From NCBI RefSeq assembly GCF_014127285.1, contig NZ_CP059901.1, positions 2,914,001 through 2,978,000 of the forward strand: a stretch of DNA of 64,000 nucleotides, in the 5' to 3' direction. Position 1 is the stretch's first letter, and each line of letters opens with the position of its first letter. This DNA comes from Mumia sp. ZJ1417 (GTDB taxonomy: Bacteria > Actinomycetota > Actinomycetes > Propionibacteriales > Nocardioidaceae). The translations under genes and the position numbers were made by a program. The notes beneath the pieces are model-generated. The model was given only the letters and a program-made list of their open reading frames with translations. It searched no databases and was not told the DNA's origin. Positions 10,752 to 18,697 of the stretch are shown here, in pieces.

Positions 10752-10896
10752 CTGACACCCCCGCTCACGCCGTGGGGCGCGCGTCTGCACCCGTCAGGAT
10801 TTTACGCCCGGGTTGCGTTCCGGCGACAGCGATGAGGTTCCGCCGCCCGGTCGGTCAGTCTCTTCAGACGGACCCGCCGACTGCGAGGAGAGCACC

Positions 10897-11472
10897 ATGA
10901 CCGCGACCTACACCTTCGACGTCGTGTCCACCATCGACGGCTTCGGCTCGTACGGAGGGGGCGGCGACTGGGGCGGGTACTGGGGCAAGCAGGGCCCCGA
11001 GTTCCTCGACCACCGCCTCGCGCAGTACGAGGCGGAGCAGCGGATGGTCCTCGGCGCCCACACCTATCGGGAGTTCGTCGAGCTCCTGGGCGCGAGCACC
11101 GACGAGCTCGACCCGATCAATGCCCGGATGGTGAACCTCCCGACGACGGTGGTCTCGACGACCCTCCAGGGACCGCTCGACTGGCCGAACGCGGCCGTCG
11201 TGAGCGGCGACGCCGTCGACGTCGTCGCGCGGCTCAAAGAGGAGTCCGACGTGCCGTTGCGCTCGCATGGCAGCCTGTCGATGAACCGCGCGCTGATGGC
11301 GGCCGGTCTCGTCGACCGCGTCCAGGTGACGCTCTTCCCGGTGATCAGCGGTCAGACCGGGACGGACCCGATCTTCGCAGGATCGGCCGACTTCGACCTC
11401 GAGCTGCTCGAGAGCTGGACGTTCGACGGCCACACCCAAGAGCTCACCTACCGTCCGACCGTGCACGGCTGA
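10897..11472 (+). CDS. dihydrofolate reductase-family protein (RibD C-terminal domain)
   Basis: 191 residues from ATG 10897 (GAGGAGAGCACC upstream). Family blocks: TFDVVSTIDGFG, DWGGYWGKQGPEFLDHRLA, MVLGAHTYREF, LPTTVVSTTL and a C-terminal half with VPLRSHGSLSMNRALMAAGLVDR and PIFAGSADFDLELLES. It is a close paralogue of 18119-18697 (near-identical N-termini, KQGPE and GSLSMNR blocks) and a distant one of the pair at 2147-3405. The product is probably an NAD(P)H-dependent reductase with unknown substrate. It is divergent from the GAF-ANTAR gene. Confidence 0.87.
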   Translation: MTATYTFDVVSTIDGFGSYGGGGDWGGYWGKQGPEFLDHRLAQYEAEQRMVLGAHTYREFVELLGASTDELDPINARMVNLPTTVVSTTLQGPLDWPNAAVVSGDAVDVVARLKEESDVPLRSHGSLSMNRALMAAGLVDRVQVTLFPVISGQTGTDPIFAGSADFDLELLESWTFDGHTQELTYRPTVHG

Positions 11473-11504: not shown

Positions 11505-12056
11505 ATGTTCGAGAAGCGCCGCCTGCCCACTCGTACGCCCGAGTCCCGCGCGTTCGCCGAGCGCGTCCAGGTCGCCATGGAACTCACGTCGCGGCTCAAC
11601 GTCCTCCCGCACGGTGACGTCGACGCACGCATCGCTCTGCTGAGCGAGATCTTCGGCCAGCCCCTGCCGGAGTCGCTCACGATCTATCCGCCGTTCTTCT
11701 GCGACTACGGCCTCGGCGCGACGTTCGGGGAGCGCGTCTTCATCAACCAGGGGTGCTACTTCCTGGACTTCGGCGGCATCACGATCGGCGACCGCGTCCT
11801 GATCGGCCCCAACGTCACACTCAGCACCTCCGGGCATCCCGTTGAGGTCGCCGAGCGGTTCGACTACCTGACTCACGCCCCCATCGTCATCGAGGACGAC
11901 GTCTGGATCGGCGCCGGCGCGACGGTCGCACCCGGCGTGACGATCGGCCACGGATCGGTCATCGGCGCGGGCACCGTCGTCGCGAAGGATGTCCCGCCGC
12001 TGAGCGTCGTCACCGGTGCCGGCGCGATCCAGAGGAACGCCGTCCAGCCGTCCTAG
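11505..12056 (+). CDS. sugar O-acetyltransferase (maltose/galactoside acetyltransferase type, left-handed beta helix)
   Basis: 183 residues, the usual size for the Maa/LacA/NodL group. The N-terminal helical cap contains LTSRLNVLPHGDVDARIALLSEIFG. The hexapeptide-repeat helix follows: FFCDYGLGATFGERVFINQGCYFLDFGG, ITIGDRVLIGPNVTLSTSGHP (with the His expected to act as catalytic base), then IVIEDDVWIGAGATVAPGV and VIGAGTVVAKDVP. It transfers acetyl from acetyl-CoA to a sugar hydroxyl. Its stop overlaps that of the convergent TetR gene by 4 bases. Confidence 0.9.
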   Translation: MFEKRRLPTRTPESRAFAERVQVAMELTSRLNVLPHGDVDARIALLSEIFGQPLPESLTIYPPFFCDYGLGATFGERVFINQGCYFLDFGGITIGDRVLIGPNVTLSTSGHPVEVAERFDYLTHAPIVIEDDVWIGAGATVAPGVTIGHGSVIGAGTVVAKDVPPLSVVTGAGAIQRNAVQPS

Positions 12057-12688
12057 GACTGACCGCCGCCCGGTCGCCCCGCGCCTTCGACCAGATCGGG
12101 GATGGTCCTCCGTACGAGGTCGACCAGCGCCTCGCACAGCAGCCGCTCGAGCTGCTCTCGTGTCAGCTCGGCCCCGCGCAACCAGCGACGCGTGACGACC
12201 GTCGCGTACGCCGAGTAGCCGTGCAGCGCGACCCGCACCACCGGGTCTTCTCGTACGACGTGCAGGCCGGCGATCTCGCAGATCTGGTCGGCCATGGCCT
12301 CGGTGTACTCGCTCACCAGCGCCTGGACCTGCTCGTCCTGCGACTCCCCCGTCAACGCCGACGCCGACAGCCACGTCTCACGGCTGCGCAGCACCATCCC
12401 GACCCACTCGTGGACGCTCTGCGCGATGCGTTCCTCCGGCCGCGCCCCCTCCACGTACGCGGGGGTCGGGAGGCGCGGCGCCTGGAGCAGCTTCGCGACG
12501 ACGGCGACGTAGAGGTCGCGCTTGGTCGGGAAGTAGTGGTTGAGCAGTCCTCTACTCACGCCGCATGCACCGGCAAGCTCGCCCGTCGACACGTCGTCGT
12601 ACGGGCGCTCGGCGAACACGCGGCCGGCGGCGCTGACGATCTGCTCGCGCCGTACGTCCGGCGGGAGTCGGCGACGCGTAGATCCCAT
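12053..12688 (-). CDS. TetR-family regulator divergent from lcp (LcpR-like position)
   Basis: 211 residues from ATG 12688; the longer upstream frame lacks family resemblance. The N-terminal helix-turn-helix is clear (REQIVSAAGRVFAERPYDDVSTGELAGACGVSRGLLNHYFPTKRDL), with a variable ligand-binding domain after it. It is divergent from the lcp-like gene with 173 bases between starts, and two inverted repeats lie in that gap. In Gordonia rubber degraders a TetR regulator (LcpR) sits next to lcp and represses it; the same role here is inferred from position. Confidence 0.9.
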   Translation of the reverse strand: MGSTRRRLPPDVRREQIVSAAGRVFAERPYDDVSTGELAGACGVSRGLLNHYFPTKRDLYVAVVAKLLQAPRLPTPAYVEGARPEERIAQSVHEWVGMVLRSRETWLSASALTGESQDEQVQALVSEYTEAMADQICEIAGLHVVREDPVVRVALHGYSAYATVVTRRWLRGAELTREQLERLLCEALVDLVRRTIPDLVEGAGRPGGGQS

Positions 12689-12787
12689 GCCGGAATCTTG
12701 CCGTACACCTCGCTCGACCGGGCAAAGAGTGCAGATCGGACGATCGACCTCGTTCCCTCTAGCCATCCCCGTCCTCCTCTATTAATA

Positions 12788-12819
12788 TGACGCAAGTCAC
12801 TATTGGCAAACTGCCGATA
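12788..12819. promoter_or_regulatory. candidate TetR operators upstream of lcp
   Basis: Two adjacent palindromes lie between the TetR gene and lcp: TGAC-gcaa-GTCA (12788-12799) and TATTGGCA-aac-TGCCGATA (12801-12819, one mismatch in 8-bp arms). An AT-rich ATTAATAT patch (12781-12788) immediately before them could serve as a -10 region. Size, symmetry and position suit a TetR operator. Confidence 0.5.
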
Positions 12820-12861
12820 GCCTCCGCCTGGCTGTCGCGAGGACTCGACGAGGAGCACGAA

Positions 12862-14085
12862 ATGGCAGACCTCAGCAGGAGAAACCTCTTACGGGCGGGA
12901 GGAGCCCTCGGTGCGCTCGGCGCCTTCACGGTCGCCGCCCCCGCCAAGGCGTGGACGTGGTCCTCGGCGGGCTCGATCGCCGGCACGGGCACCGGTCGCG
13001 ACCCGCGCTACGTGTGGGACGACCTGGCGGATCCCGTGCTCGCCTCGCTCCTCGAGCGCGGCGGTGTCCCCGCCGTGAACGACGTGCTCCGTTCGTGGAC
13101 GAAGAACGGCCAGACCATCCCCTCCGGCCTCCCCTCCGACGTCGCGGCGCTCGTCAACCAGACCCGCACGCTTCCCGCGTGGGCGGACCAGCGCAAGCTC
13201 GACCTCGCGTACCAGTTCACTCGGAAGCGCGGGCTCTACCTGGGCGTCCTGTACGGCATGAACAGCGGCATGATGAGCGCCGCCATCCCGCGCGAGGCAC
13301 GCGCCGTCTACTACTCCAAAGGCGGCGCCGACCTGACGGACCGCATCGCCAAGACCGCGAAGCTCGGGTACGACATCGGCGACTACCACGCGTACCGGCC
13401 GGACGGCGAGATGGTCGTGACCTGTGTGAAGACCAGGCTCACGCACGCCGCCGTTCGCCATCTACTCCCCCAGTCCCCGCACTGGGTGGCGTCGGCCGAC
13501 GAAGAGATCCCAATCAGCCAGTTCGACATCATGGTGACGTGGCACAGCCTCGCCTCGTCAGTCTGGCAGAAGCTCATGGACTGGAACATCCGGATCCCCA
13601 AGGCCGAGGCTGACGCATACCTCCACATCTGGCAGGTGACGGCGTCGATGCTCGGCGTCCTCGACGAGTACATCCCCGCATCCTGGGACGAGGCGCTGGC
13701 CCAGCGTGAACAGGTCCTGGTGCCGCTCCTCGGTCCGACCCCGGAGGGCGTCAAGCTCGCGGAGATGCTGACGAACCTGGGAGACCGCATCGACTTCACC
13801 CTGGTCACGAAGCCCGCGTTCGAGTCGGTCACCCGATACATGCTCGGCGACCAGGTCACCGACTGGCTCGGGATCGACCGCAACCCGATCCTCGACGCGA
13901 CCGTCGCCGCCGCCTGGATCCCGTTCGTCCGGCTGCGCGAGCTCGGCCTCCCGCTGCTCGGGGTGCCGTCGATCTACTTCGTGTTCGAGGAGCTGATCCG
14001 GAAGTTCGCGCTCTTCTACCTCGAGCCCGGGCAGCAGATCAACATCGACATCCCGACGATGAACAACCCGAACTACCCGTCCTGA
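12862..14085 (+). CDS. lcp: latex-clearing protein (rubber oxygenase, DUF2236/MpaB superfamily), Tat-exported
   Basis: 407 residues from ATG 12862; the start is fixed by the Tat signal (LSRRNLLRAGG, then a hydrophobic stretch, cleavage near APAKA). Lcp enzymes are b-type haem dioxygenases that cleave poly(cis-1,4-isoprene) outside the cell to oligo-isoprenoids with aldehyde and ketone ends. Residues known to matter in Streptomyces K30 Lcp (Arg164, Lys167, Thr168, haem-ligand His198, Glu148) have counterparts with identical spacing: Arg161, Lys164, Thr165, His195 (in RLTHAAVRHLLPQ) and Glu145. Lys81 is a candidate distal ligand. It is followed by the oxiB/oxiA-like genes and preceded by a divergent TetR gene, as in known rubber loci. 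A general DUF2236 oxygenase is the alternative. Confidence 0.85.
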   Translation: MADLSRRNLLRAGGALGALGAFTVAAPAKAWTWSSAGSIAGTGTGRDPRYVWDDLADPVLASLLERGGVPAVNDVLRSWTKNGQTIPSGLPSDVAALVNQTRTLPAWADQRKLDLAYQFTRKRGLYLGVLYGMNSGMMSAAIPREARAVYYSKGGADLTDRIAKTAKLGYDIGDYHAYRPDGEMVVTCVKTRLTHAAVRHLLPQSPHWVASADEEIPISQFDIMVTWHSLASSVWQKLMDWNIRIPKAEADAYLHIWQVTASMLGVLDEYIPASWDEALAQREQVLVPLLGPTPEGVKLAEMLTNLGDRIDFTLVTKPAFESVTRYMLGDQVTDWLGIDRNPILDATVAAAWIPFVRLRELGLPLLGVPSIYFVFEELIRKFALFYLEPGQQINIDIPTMNNPNYPS

Positions 14086-14102
14086 GAGCGAGGAGCCGAG
14101 CC

Positions 14103-14138
14103 ATGCGCGACCTCAGCAGACGCCAGAGTCCGTTCTAA
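14103..14138 (+). other. 11-codon reading frame in frame with oxiB, ended by TAA
   Basis: ATG 14103 has a good ribosome site (GCGAGGAG) and encodes MRDLSRRQSPF before a TAA at 14136-14138. It is in the same frame as the oxiB ATG at 14148, which has no ribosome site of its own. The DNA and peptide resemble the beginning of lcp (MADLSRRNLL). It may be a leader peptide that couples translation, or the original oxiB start cut off by a nonsense mutation. Confidence 0.5.
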
Positions 14139-14147
14139 CACGCCGAC

Positions 14148-16433
14148 ATGACAGACGAGATTAACGAGCCCGACGGCATCGGACGTCGGAGTTTCCTCGG
14201 GTACGTGCTGGCATCGGCGACCCTCGTCACCGGCGCCCGCCTGGCCCTCCCCGGTGAGGCCGAGGCCGCAGCCCTGCCGCAGCTGACGGACTTCCTCGAC
14301 CTCAACGACATGATGACGGTGGCGGCGCTGCCGACGTCGCACCTCATCACCGTCGAGGTACGCCCCGACGGCACTGTGGCCTTCTCCCTCCCCCGGGCCG
14401 AGGTGGGCCAGGGCATCACCACCTCGACGGCCATGCTCATCGCCGAGGAGCTGGACGTCGGTCTCGACCGGATCCGCGTCACGCTCGCCGACGCCCGGCC
14501 GGAGCTCCTCTTCAACCAGCTCACCGGAGCCTCCAACACGACGATCGCCACGTTCACGCCGATCCGCGTCGCCGCGGCGATCGCGCGGCTCCGCCTGCTC
14601 GCCGCGGCCGCGACCGAGCTCGGCCGTCCGGCAGCCGACCTCACACTGAAGAACGGCGTCGTCACCGCTCCCGGTGGCGCATCCCTCGACATCGGTGCGC
14701 TCGCGGCGAAGGCGGCCAGCTCCCGCGTCGAGACGGTACGGGTCACGCTCAAGCCCAGCGACGACTTCACCGTGATCGGCACGCCCCGAACGCGCGTCGA
14801 CGCGCTGGCTGCCGTGACCGGACGCAAGCAGTTCGCGATGGACCTGCAGGTCCCCGGCGCACTGCCGACGATGGTATGCCGGCCCCCGACGCTCAACGGC
14901 ACCGTACGGTCGGTCGCCAACCTCGCCGCGGTGCGCGCCATGCCCGGCGTCACCGACGTGGTGCCGATCGCGACCGGCGTCGCCGTACGCGCCGAGACGT
15001 TCGGCCAGTGCATCGACGCGGTGCGAGCGTTGGAGGTCTCGTGGGGTCGGGGCACCGCTGAGGGCAAGTCGGACGACGACGTGCTCGCCGAGCTGCGGCG
15101 GGCCGAGCTCCCGATGGGACTGCCGCCCCTCACGCCGACGATCGACACCAGGTTCACGTTCGCGTTCCGCAGCAACAGCGCACTGGAGACGAACTGTGCC
15201 ATCGCCGACGTGCGCGGTGGACGGGCCGAGATCTGGTCGTCGCTCAAGTCGCCGATCATCGCGCGGCAGACCCTCGCGCTCACGCTCAAGATCCCCGCCA
15301 GCGCCGTCACCGTGCACGTCACCGAGGGCGGCGGCTCGTTCGGCCGCAAGCTCTTCTTCGACGCCGCGCTCGAGGCCGCCGAGGTCTCGCAGAAGATCGG
15401 CAAGCCGGTGAAGCTGATGTGGCACCGCGCCGACGACAGCCGCCAAGGGCGCACCCACCCGATGGCGACCTCACGCGTGCGCGCGAACTACCTCGGCAGC
15501 TCCGTGCTCGGCTTCAAGCAGGTCCACACCAGCGTCGCCACCGACCTCGGCCACGGCCTGGGCGAGCTCATCACCGCGACGGTGGCGGGGCTGCCGGTGG
15601 GCGATTCGGCGTTCTCGCAGGTGTTCTTCCAGCTCTCGCAGACGATGCCGTACGACTTCGGGGTCGTCAGCCGGGTCCTGAACGAGACCGACCGCGGGTT
15701 CAACACCGGCAGCATGCGCAACGTCTACTCCCCCGACGTGACGTGCGCACGCGAGCTCGTCGTGGACCAGCTGGCGGCACGGATGCGCAAGGACCCCTTC
15801 CAGTTCCGCCGGTCGATGCTGCGGACCGATCGAGCGCGCGCCGTCCTCGACAAGGTCGCCCAGGTCGGCAGCTGGGGACGGACGATGCCGGCCGGCACGG
15901 CGCAGGGCATCGCGCTCCACGACGAGTACCGCTCGGTCAGCGCCGTGCTCGTCGAGCTCGACTGCCGCCCAGAGACAGTCGGACGGCAGATCAGGGACGC
16001 CGTCGCCGGCCCTCGCGTCACCAAGGCCGTGATCGCGGTCGACGCCGGCCTCGCGGTGAACCCGCGCGGCCTCGAGGCGCAGATGATGGGGTGCCTGATG
16101 GACGGAATCGCCCTCGCCCTGACCTCCAGCCTCCACCTCCGCGACGGGTCGTTCCTCGAGGCCAGCTGGGACAACTACTTCTATACGCGGCAGTGGAACA
16201 CGCCCCCCGAGATCAAGATCGTCATCATGCCGACCACCACCGGCGAGCCCGGAGGTGCGGGCGAGCTCGGCGTCGCCGCGTCATTCGCCGCCGTCGCCTG
16301 CGCGTATGGGAGAGCGACAGGGACCATGCCGACGTCGTTCCCGATCAACCACTCGACGCTCTCGTTCACCCCCAAGCCCACCGTTCCTCCGATCCCGCAG
16401 TCGCCCACCGACGGACTGACCTTCGTCCGCTGA
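14148..16433 (+). CDS. oxiB: molybdenum hydroxylase large (Moco-binding) subunit, Tat-exported, OxiB-like
   Basis: 761 residues of the isoquinoline 1-oxidoreductase/aldehyde oxidase type large subunit (xanthine dehydrogenase family). A Tat signal (IGRRSFLGYVLASATLVTGA) indicates export. Moco-binding blocks include LPRAEVGQGITTSTAMLIAEEL, TEGGGSFGRKLFFDAALEAAEVS, and PGGAGELGVAASFAAVACA, whose Glu is the expected catalytic base. It needs the 2Fe-2S subunit encoded 37 bases downstream. In Streptomyces K30 oxiA/oxiB follow lcp and were proposed to oxidise the aldehyde ends of the rubber cleavage products; I infer the same here. ATG 14148 lacks a clear ribosome site (see 14103-14138). Confidence 0.87.
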   Translation: MTDEINEPDGIGRRSFLGYVLASATLVTGARLALPGEAEAAALPQLTDFLDLNDMMTVAALPTSHLITVEVRPDGTVAFSLPRAEVGQGITTSTAMLIAEELDVGLDRIRVTLADARPELLFNQLTGASNTTIATFTPIRVAAAIARLRLLAAAATELGRPAADLTLKNGVVTAPGGASLDIGALAAKAASSRVETVRVTLKPSDDFTVIGTPRTRVDALAAVTGRKQFAMDLQVPGALPTMVCRPPTLNGTVRSVANLAAVRAMPGVTDVVPIATGVAVRAETFGQCIDAVRALEVSWGRGTAEGKSDDDVLAELRRAELPMGLPPLTPTIDTRFTFAFRSNSALETNCAIADVRGGRAEIWSSLKSPIIARQTLALTLKIPASAVTVHVTEGGGSFGRKLFFDAALEAAEVSQKIGKPVKLMWHRADDSRQGRTHPMATSRVRANYLGSSVLGFKQVHTSVATDLGHGLGELITATVAGLPVGDSAFSQVFFQLSQTMPYDFGVVSRVLNETDRGFNTGSMRNVYSPDVTCARELVVDQLAARMRKDPFQFRRSMLRTDRARAVLDKVAQVGSWGRTMPAGTAQGIALHDEYRSVSAVLVELDCRPETVGRQIRDAVAGPRVTKAVIAVDAGLAVNPRGLEAQMMGCLMDGIALALTSSLHLRDGSFLEASWDNYFYTRQWNTPPEIKIVIMPTTTGEPGGAGELGVAASFAAVACAYGRATGTMPTSFPINHSTLSFTPKPTVPPIPQSPTDGLTFVR

Positions 16434-16470
16434 CGCACTGCACTCCCCCACGAGACCAAGGAGAACCACC

Positions 16471-16947
16471 GTGCCCCAGCACACCTTCGTGCTCAACGGC
16501 CGACAGGTCAGCGTCGACGTCGCTGACGGCGTGCGACTGCTGTGGGTCCTGCGTGACGTCCTGGGTGTCACTGGCCCGAAGTACGGCTGCGGGATCAACG
16601 TGTGCAAGGCATGCACGAGCCACCTCAACGGCAAAGCGTTCAACCCGTGCGCTGTCCCGGTGGACGCGCTCTCGCCGACCGACGAGGTGACGACGATCGA
16701 GGGGCTCCCCGACACGATCGGCGCCGAGCTCCACCCCATGCAGGAGGCGTGGCTCGCGCACGACGTCGCGCAGTGCGGCTTCTGCCAGCCGGGCCAGATC
16801 ATGGCCGCCGTCGACCTCGTACGCCGTGTCGCCGCCGAGGGTCGCAGCGTCACCGACGACGACCTCGACAGCATCCGCAACATCTGTCGCTGCGGTACCT
16901 ACCCCCGCATCCGGGAGGCGATCCGTACCGGCGCAGCGCGCATGTGA
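16471..16947 (+). CDS. oxiA: (2Fe-2S) small subunit of the molybdenum hydroxylase, OxiA-like
   Basis: 158 residues from a GTG with AAGGAG upstream. The N-terminal plant-type ferredoxin domain carries the cluster motif CGINVCKAC plus a later Cys (NPCAVP). The C-terminal four-helix domain carries CGFCQPGQ and CRCGTYPRIREAI for the second cluster. This is the standard two-cluster small subunit that passes electrons from the Moco site. It lacks an export signal, so it is presumably carried out with the Tat-tagged large subunit. It is the last gene of the lcp-oxiB-oxiA set; export by hitch-hiking is inferred. Confidence 0.9.
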   Translation: MPQHTFVLNGRQVSVDVADGVRLLWVLRDVLGVTGPKYGCGINVCKACTSHLNGKAFNPCAVPVDALSPTDEVTTIEGLPDTIGAELHPMQEAWLAHDVAQCGFCQPGQIMAAVDLVRRVAAEGRSVTDDDLDSIRNICRCGTYPRIREAIRTGAARM

Positions 16948-17933: not shown

Positions 17934-18118
17934 GCCTCCAGCCTCGTGGCGTACGGGCGCGGGCAGGAGTGCCGGCCGTCATGAAGGCGTGTGGATCCTC
18001 CACGGCCCGGGGATGACGAATGTCACGCGAACGCGGCGACCGTTCGATGGGAGCGATGAGTTCGACCCGGCCCGCAGGTCGACACCACGACCTGATCAAC
18101 CGTCCCGAGGAGTGCACG

Positions 18119-18697
18119 ATGACTGCCACCTACACCTTCGACGTCTTCTCGAGCCTCGACGGTTTCGGCACCGCCAGCGGCGGCGACTGGGGCGGCTACT
18201 GGGGCAAGCAAGGCCCCGAGCTGCTCGACCACCGTCTCGCCTCGTACGACGAGGAGCAGCGGATGGTCTTCGGGGCCAATACGTACCGGGCGTTCGTCCA
18301 GCTGCTGGGTTCGGGCACCGAGGAGTCGGTGTACGACGCCTGGGTCACCCGGATGATGAGCTTGCCGACGACGGTCGTGTCGTCCACCCTGCGAGGACCG
18401 CTCGACTGGCCGGACGCTACCCTTGCGGCTGGTGATGCCGTCGACGTCGTCGCCCGGCTCAAGGAGGCGTCCGACGTGCCGTTGCGCTCGCACGGAAGCC
18501 TGTCGATGAACCGTGCCCTCATGGCCGCTGGCCTGGTCGACCGCGTCGAAGTGACGGTGTTCCCTGTGATCACCGGGCAGTCCGGAACCGACCCGATCTT
18601 CGCCGGAGCGGCCGACTTCGACCTCGACCTGCTCGAGAGCCGGACCCTTGACGGCCGCATCCAAGAGCTCGTCTACCGGCCCACCCTGCACGGCTGA
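18119..18697 (+). CDS. dihydrofolate reductase-family protein (RibD C-terminal domain)
   Basis: 192 residues from ATG 18119, with CGAGGAG 6 bases upstream. It shares most of its sequence with 10897-11472 (DWGGYWGKQGPELLDHRLA, EEQRMVFGANTYR, LPTTVVSSTLRGPLDWP, VPLRSHGSLSMNRALMAAG, QSGTDPIFAGAADFDLDLLES), and the DNA is alike over long stretches too. It is the fourth member of the family in 16 kb. It probably works as a reductase with unknown substrate. Followed by a decayed PadR regulator and a GyrI-like gene. Confidence 0.88.
   Translation: MTATYTFDVFSSLDGFGTASGGDWGGYWGKQGPELLDHRLASYDEEQRMVFGANTYRAFVQLLGSGTEESVYDAWVTRMMSLPTTVVSSTLRGPLDWPDATLAAGDAVDVVARLKEASDVPLRSHGSLSMNRALMAAGLVDRVEVTVFPVITGQSGTDPIFAGAADFDLDLLESRTLDGRIQELVYRPTLHG

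Follow-up and report, generated by a model that had tools for sequence, protein, structure and literature searches.

A putative rubber-degradation locus of Mumia with a TetR regulator outside the LcpR family and an apparent lcp2 remnant

The window analysed here is a stretch of 64,000 nucleotides, positions 2914001-2978000 of a single-contig Mumia genome of 4,190,080 bases; coordinates below are window positions. Four open reading frames, arranged TetR - lcp - oxiB - oxiA, lie where a preliminary description of this DNA had placed them. The tetR gene (12053-12766, minus strand) encodes 237 amino acids with a PF00440 domain, a Mumia-type regulator that is not LcpR. The lcp gene (12862-14085, plus strand), of the lcp1 group, encodes a predicted rubber oxygenase of 407 amino acids with a Tat-type N-terminus. 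It is followed on the same strand by oxiB (14148-16433; 761 amino acids, Tat-type N-terminus), the molybdopterin subunit of a heterodimeric aldehyde oxidase (PF20256/PF02738), and by oxiA (16471-16947; 158 amino acids), the [2Fe-2S] subunit (PF00111, Fer2; PF01799, Fer2_2). The tetR start at 12766 has a strong Shine-Dalgarno (SD) sequence (-12.1 kcal/mol; the alternative at 12688 reaches only -1.7), and the lcp start at 12862 has one as well (-8.4 kcal/mol), although the longest frame opens at 12787. Two smaller features complete the picture: an operator-like inverted repeat of 19 bp (12801-12819, TATTGGCA-AAC-TGCCGATA, no strand assigned), which contains a -35-like TTGGCA, and a candidate lcp2 remnant (14103-14138, plus strand). 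The locus had been called complete. This holds with reservations: a tandem lcp2 appears to have been deleted, and the promoter of lcp1 seems to have changed. Three features had been overlooked, namely the lcp2 remnant, a second lcp elsewhere in the genome and the position of the TetR outside the LcpR family.

The closest named relatives at the locus, judged by Lcp, are Mumia xiangluensis (96%) and M. quercus (83%). When the window genome is compared with five other Mumia genomes, lcp and oxiB co-occur in four of the six and neither is found in the other two, one of which yields a 24% DUF2236 match only. A clean empty site was sought in the lcp-less genomes; the matches there are not collinear. 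Two RibD_C-family genes in the same orientation (10884-11472 and 18106-18697) flank the locus 7.2 kb apart. They are 80.8% identical over 598 bases, and recombination between them could delete the entire lcp locus.

The product of 12862-14085 is an Lcp, on the combined basis of sequence, residues, structural model, synteny and placement among Lcps. It matches LcpK30 (5o1l) with an E-value of 4.6e-146 (490 bits) at 55% identity. The residues E145, R161, K164, T165 and H195, singled out in the preliminary description, are present and align with E148, R164, K167, T168 and H198 of LcpK30. In LcpK30 numbering, the window protein keeps E148, R164, K167, T168, R195, H198, R202, H203, W211 and T230; in an alignment of 72 rows that also contains LcpK30 and 70 further Lcps of the loci fetched, E148, R164, K167, T168 and H198 are conserved throughout and H203 in 68 rows. 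The roles of these residues are taken from PMC5522427 and PMC6311187. The structural check proposed earlier recovered the Lcp fold: an AF2 model (pLDDT 82.5, 26 alignment rows) retrieves 5o1l as the top Foldseek match (E 6.0e-31, TM 0.81), and the first non-Lcp match is the t-anethole oxygenase 8s1j (E 0.029). The proposed profile comparison likewise separates Lcp from non-Lcp DUF2236 proteins by score. Among the Nocardioidaceae matches, Lcps are 46-100% identical to the window protein and other DUF2236 proteins 21-33%; none of the four further DUF2236-domain proteins of the window genome is reported by the Lcp search. An SRRNLLRAGG motif of the window Lcp lines up with the start of LcpK30 and scores slightly below the cut-off of PF10518 (20.8 against 22.7 bits). 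On the strength of these comparisons the window Lcp probably cleaves rubber, and it is plausible that the strain attacks it.

A quick tree of 72 sequences, all Lcps, contains an lcp3 clade (n=9, support 100), a clade with LcpK30 and the tandem lcp2 genes (n=24, support 98) and a looser group (n=39, support 88, drawn open). To the last belong the Lcp studied here, that of the Gordonia VH2 plasmid and the lcp1 genes of tandem loci, which makes the window protein one of lcp1 type, outside the K30 clade. Because 38 of the loci were retrieved with peptide patterns of the window Lcp itself, lcp1-type genes are over-represented. The idea that single genes of LcpK30 type are lcp1/lcp2 chimeras was rejected: in a sliding identity comparison with four groups (7, 7, 4 and 4 sequences), the Streptomyces group to which LcpK30 belongs is the closest to it along the whole length. 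Only Streptomyces violaceorubidus (L041, 6001-8728) combines two dissimilar halves; there the lcp frame is broken, the halves are 62% and 47% identical to the window Lcp, and a shortened oxiB has lost most of its middle; this is a decayed rubber locus. Elsewhere in the tree, two Microbacterium Lcps (L039, L040) adjoin the Mumia lcp3 genes (support 88), a placement that suggests transfer between families. A further lcp on a long branch comes from a metagenome bin labelled Bifidobacterium breve (L031), and its contig is likely wrongly binned.

Within Mumia, lcp1 itself seems to have a mosaic history. Between the window and M. xiangluensis it is 96.3, 98.0 and 84.0% identical at codon positions 1, 2 and 3. 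In this comparison of six genes, third-position identity is 63.5% for tetR, 62.5% for oxiB, 63.3% for oxiA, 64.3% for lcp3 and 74.3% for one neighbour gene. Since the third-position value of lcp1 is far above those of tetR, oxiB and oxiA, the six genes suggest a recombinational exchange of lcp1 among Mumia lineages, in either direction. High identity extends over a tract from roughly 12990 to roughly 14100.

The assignment of OxiB and OxiA as a molybdopterin subunit and a 2Fe-2S subunit is borne out by their domains. Among solved structures, the aldehyde dehydrogenase 8gy3 scores best for both (8gy3_B for OxiA). OxiB is 68-84% identical to the OxiB of 11 other lcp loci, with its twin arginines (RR) invariant in the 12 aligned proteins, and OxiA is 74-84% identical to its counterparts. 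A Mo-binding large subunit and a 2Fe-2S small subunit thus lie directly after lcp, as judged against the OxiB/OxiA of other lcp loci and not against those of K30. No gene for an FAD subunit is seen among the neighbouring genes scanned. In nine other lcp-carrying Nocardioidaceae genomes, oxiB was found in four, far from lcp or on another contig. The activity and location of OxiAB are putative; by analogy with the literature, the enzyme would oxidise oligo-isoprenoid aldehydes.

The layout in M. xiangluensis is lcp1-lcp2-oxiB-oxiA. The 62 bases that separate lcp1 from oxiB in the window contain an SD sequence, an ATG with the codons for MRDLSRRQ, three more codons and a stop (MRDLSRRQSPF*). Positions 14086-14129 can be aligned with the beginning of lcp2 in M. 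xiangluensis and in the Mumia genome G049, and none of 2000 shuffles reaches either score. It appears from these alignments that a tandem lcp2 was deleted from the window locus and that its 5' end survives. Only a 5' remnant is claimed, because shuffles reach the scores of the candidate 3' remnant before oxiB (144 and 1676 of 2000 against two relatives). A derivation of the remnant from the start of lcp1 was also considered and set aside, the score being reached by 104 of 2000 shuffles. The SD sequence of the remnant is strong (-11.9 kcal/mol) and its stop lies 9 bases before oxiB, for which no SD sequence is found in the window (+0.7 kcal/mol). The oxiB start overlaps the lcp2 stop in M. xiangluensis and at three other loci (L011, L014, L092). 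M. quercus is also without lcp2, yet its oxiB has an SD sequence of its own (-10.3 kcal/mol). The remnant may couple translation into oxiB.

Of the palindromes mentioned in the preliminary description, one 19-bp operator-like site (12801-12819) is conserved across four Mumia loci. The consensus common to the four tetR-lcp1 gaps is TAYTGKCA-N3-TGCCRATA. At up to one mismatch it occurs at this one place in the 4.19-Mb genome, the reversed control pattern nowhere; ten composition shuffles of the window, which preserve base composition alone, give no match at up to two mismatches. At lcp1 of M. xiangluensis, M. quercus and G049, a sigma70-like promoter overlaps the operator, whose left arm covers the -35 element, and this fits the expectation for a repressor. 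In front of the window lcp1 the -35 half is present and a -10 is not found, there being no promoter-like site in 12650-12900; in the alignment of the tetR-lcp1 gaps, the window sequence is missing for 20 columns from the expected -10 onwards. The TetR would repress lcp1 through this predicted operator.

The regulator had been described as an LcpR-type TetR, and this did not survive comparison. We defined the canonical LcpR family (A4) as the divergent TetR at ten aligned lcp loci, 61-69% identical to the first member. A tblastn search places it at 33 of the other lcp loci fetched (n=56); L015 and L085, both in this set, represent a single place, and at L024 the LcpR is just 43% identical and lies 5 kb downstream. 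The TetR of the Gordonia p174 record is 55% identical to the first A4 member and presumably is LcpRVH2, the VH2 protein being named in no record. The window TetR is 66-72% identical to its three Mumia orthologues, and canonical LcpR aligns with it in the helix-turn-helix (HTH) and not over its full length. One may still ask whether it is a diverged LcpR orthologue, as its position and divergent orientation are those of LcpR and the HTH columns of the two TetR proteins do align (E 1.3e-4). However, the comparison of the Mumia (A5) and A4 profiles is limited to 58 HTH columns (prob 54), the pairwise alignment gives 23% over 98 amino acids and is out of register, both genes occur in G049, one per rubber locus, and the half-sites differ. 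GTATCA/TGATAC half-sites are found in nine of ten canonical LcpR gaps tested and nowhere in the window gap before lcp; the G049 lcp2 gap has only the shorter GTATC/GATAC forms. Such an orthology is very improbable, and the window TetR is, by sequence, non-orthologous to LcpR. The palindromes of LcpRVH2 and OR16 separate nothing here, because canonical loci (14-19 of 31 matches) score hardly better than Mumia gaps (13-18).

Canonical LcpR was not found in the window genome, where the best A4 match has an E-value of 1.2e-20. The best matches in M. xiangluensis (6.0e-19) and M. quercus (1.6e-20) are of the same order as those in the two lcp-less Mumia genomes (2.6e-18 and 3.8e-20). Three Mumia genomes have the Mumia TetR next to a single run of genes made up of lcp1, oxiBA and, where present, lcp2. 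In G049, a canonical LcpR (E 5.3e-100) adjoins an lcp2-oxiB-oxiA unit and the Mumia TetR adjoins lcp1, about 65 kb away. As a different TetR stands at each rubber locus of G049, these are two separately regulated units.

Kin of the Mumia TetR are found well beyond the genus. At E <=1e-30, 40 of 394 Actinomycetes genomes (two of them Mumia) give a match, in a search that scored only 7 candidates per genome. Twelve of the 44 listed places and four oxiB neighbourhoods were fetched; one region serves both, giving 15 regions. A Mumia-type TetR adjoins oxiBA in two of the four oxiB regions, both from Nocardioides (L174, 40% identity; L176, 36%), where the operator has no mismatch and one mismatch, respectively; it was not found in the other two. 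The operator is also present in L185 with 0 mismatches and in L182, L183, L186 and L188 with 2. Claims outside Mumia rest on matches with up to two mismatches, those with three not being counted; six of the 15 regions (L175, L177, L178, L180, L181, L187) lack an operator at up to three mismatches. Ten chosen neighbours of these regulators comprise, by Pfam, four acyl-CoA dehydrogenases, two AMP-binding synthetases, two non-Lcp DUF2236 proteins, one GMC oxidoreductase and one short-chain dehydrogenase. Because of these neighbours and a sub-threshold FasR match (53 versus 330 bits), the inducer may be an acyl-CoA. Mumia-type TetR genes near non-Lcp DUF2236 (MPAB) genes are seen in L174 (4465-10312) and L178 (6839-10618). 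In L174 the TetR faces such a gene across the operator and oxiBA follows, perhaps a second, non-rubber pathway of an oxygenase and an aldehyde oxidase. An lcp paired with a canonical LcpR is found about 2 kb from the Mumia-type TetR in L178. In Streptomyces, an acyl-CoA synthetase near lcp has a weaker TetR relative as its neighbour (L024, 35%; L028, 33%).

Another Lcp is encoded elsewhere in the genome, at C1:1515258-1516457. It is 48% identical to the window Lcp and falls in the lcp3 clade. Its region (C1:1513974-1516567; G000, L078, L124) includes a 407-residue protein with two TetR domains, of LcpRB type, that is 78-82% identical to its counterparts beside lcp3 at three other Mumia loci. 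An exact TATGTTAATN4AATCACA precedes lcp3 in all four lcp-bearing Mumia genomes and was not found in the two lcp-less ones; one further place, with two mismatches, occurs in M. xiangluensis. The two hallmarks of LcpRB, a pair of TetR domains and a TATGTTAAT-N2-AAAATCACA-like site, are thus present at lcp3. At the window locus, the TetR has one TetR_N domain and no such site is found in the window. The suggested genome-wide look-up of Mce genes yielded two sets of six genes with an MCE domain (PF02470), twelve in all, which may have a role in uptake.

Taken together, the locus probably is a rubber (cis-1,4-polyisoprene) degradation operon of Mumia, a judgement that covers the following mechanism as a whole. 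Lcp would be exported by Tat and would bind haem b through H195, with K164 as the distal ligand in the closed state, and would use O2 for endo-type cleavage of the polymer, yielding oligo-isoprenoids that end in aldehyde and ketone groups. OxiB and OxiA would form a two-subunit Mo/Fe-S hydroxylase that converts the aldehydes to acids, to be taken up, CoA-activated and beta-oxidised. The TetR, related to LcpR only in the HTH, would act as a repressor bound at 12801-12819 over the lcp1 -35 region and would be released by a breakdown product, possibly an acyl-CoA. The ribosome site and first codons left by the deleted lcp2 would serve as a short leader, which may couple into oxiB.

Some observations sit uneasily with the rubber operon: the promoter that overlaps the operator in three relatives is not found in the window, Lcp1 lies outside the LcpK30 clade at 55% identity, and the OxiB model is poor (pLDDT 56.6). 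The loss of lcp2 and of the -10 could mean that the locus is decaying or weakly expressed and that the strain relies on lcp3, which has LcpRB and an intact operator elsewhere in the genome, or does not use rubber. We consider this unlikely, as the lcp1, oxiB and oxiA frames are open, the codon-position identities of lcp1 fit purifying selection, the SD sequences of lcp1 and oxiA are kept and the operator is conserved. It is more improbable still that the substrate is another isoprenoid or unsaturated lipid (a terpenoid, carotenoid or plant latex component), as might be read from the acyl-CoA dehydrogenase, synthetase and non-Lcp DUF2236 genes near the TetR kin in other genomes. Against it, the lcp1 group includes the Lcp of Gordonia VH2 plasmid p174 (L091) and that of a Paractinoplanes locus whose layout resembles the one in Actinoplanes OR16; the Lcps of OR16, according to PMC7413915, consume oxygen on rubber latex.

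The same paper describes lcp1-lcp2-oxiB-oxiA of Actinoplanes sp. OR16 as cotranscribed, with a separate lcp3, and gives ACTI_59620 as 48.7% identical to LcpRVH2 (PMC7413915). The Mumia genome resembles OR16 in having a TetR beside lcp1, oxiB and oxiA downstream, and a separate lcp3 with a double TetR of LcpRB type and a TATGTTAAT-N2-AAAATCACA-like operator; unlike OR16, the window is without lcp2 and the TetR at lcp1 is not of LcpR type. With Streptomyces sp. K30 (5o1l, 5o1m), the window shares lcp, oxiB and oxiA together with the fold and the haem and catalytic residues; LcpK30, however, is in the lcp2-side clade. As for LcpR of Gordonia polyisoprenivorans VH2, here taken to be the p174 TetR, a TetR would control an lcp gene, but the window TetR is of another subfamily with other operator half-sites. 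The stand-alone oxiBA loci of Nocardioides (L174, L176) have the same TetR subfamily beside oxiBA, with an operator; unlike the window, they are without lcp. PMC8235351 includes a table of lcp carriers that lists Mumia with 1 species and 3 genes. The lcp/oxiAB operons, LcpR and LcpRB are already in the literature, and it is the exchange of the regulator that makes the Mumia operon a variant. In the open-access literature, we found no paper that links a latex clearing protein with a TetR regulator and an acyl-CoA synthetase.

This leads us to propose that LcpR and LcpRB are joined by regulators of a third class. Recognising TATTGGCA-N3-TGCCAATA, this TetR subfamily would serve acyl-CoA, aldehyde-oxidase and DUF2236-oxygenase genes in other Actinomycetes, would probably sense an acyl-CoA and would have displaced LcpR at the Mumia rubber operon, and the stump of the deleted lcp2 would have been kept as a translational leader for oxiB. 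We hold this joint reading tentatively, with slightly less than half of our confidence behind it. If so, a rubber operon can change its regulator, LcpR giving way to an unrelated TetR whose predicted operator is precise and unique, and the lcp2 stump would illustrate one route from a tandem to a single-lcp operon. The operator is directly testable and, with the hint that it comes with at an inducer, may be useful for work on rubber recycling.
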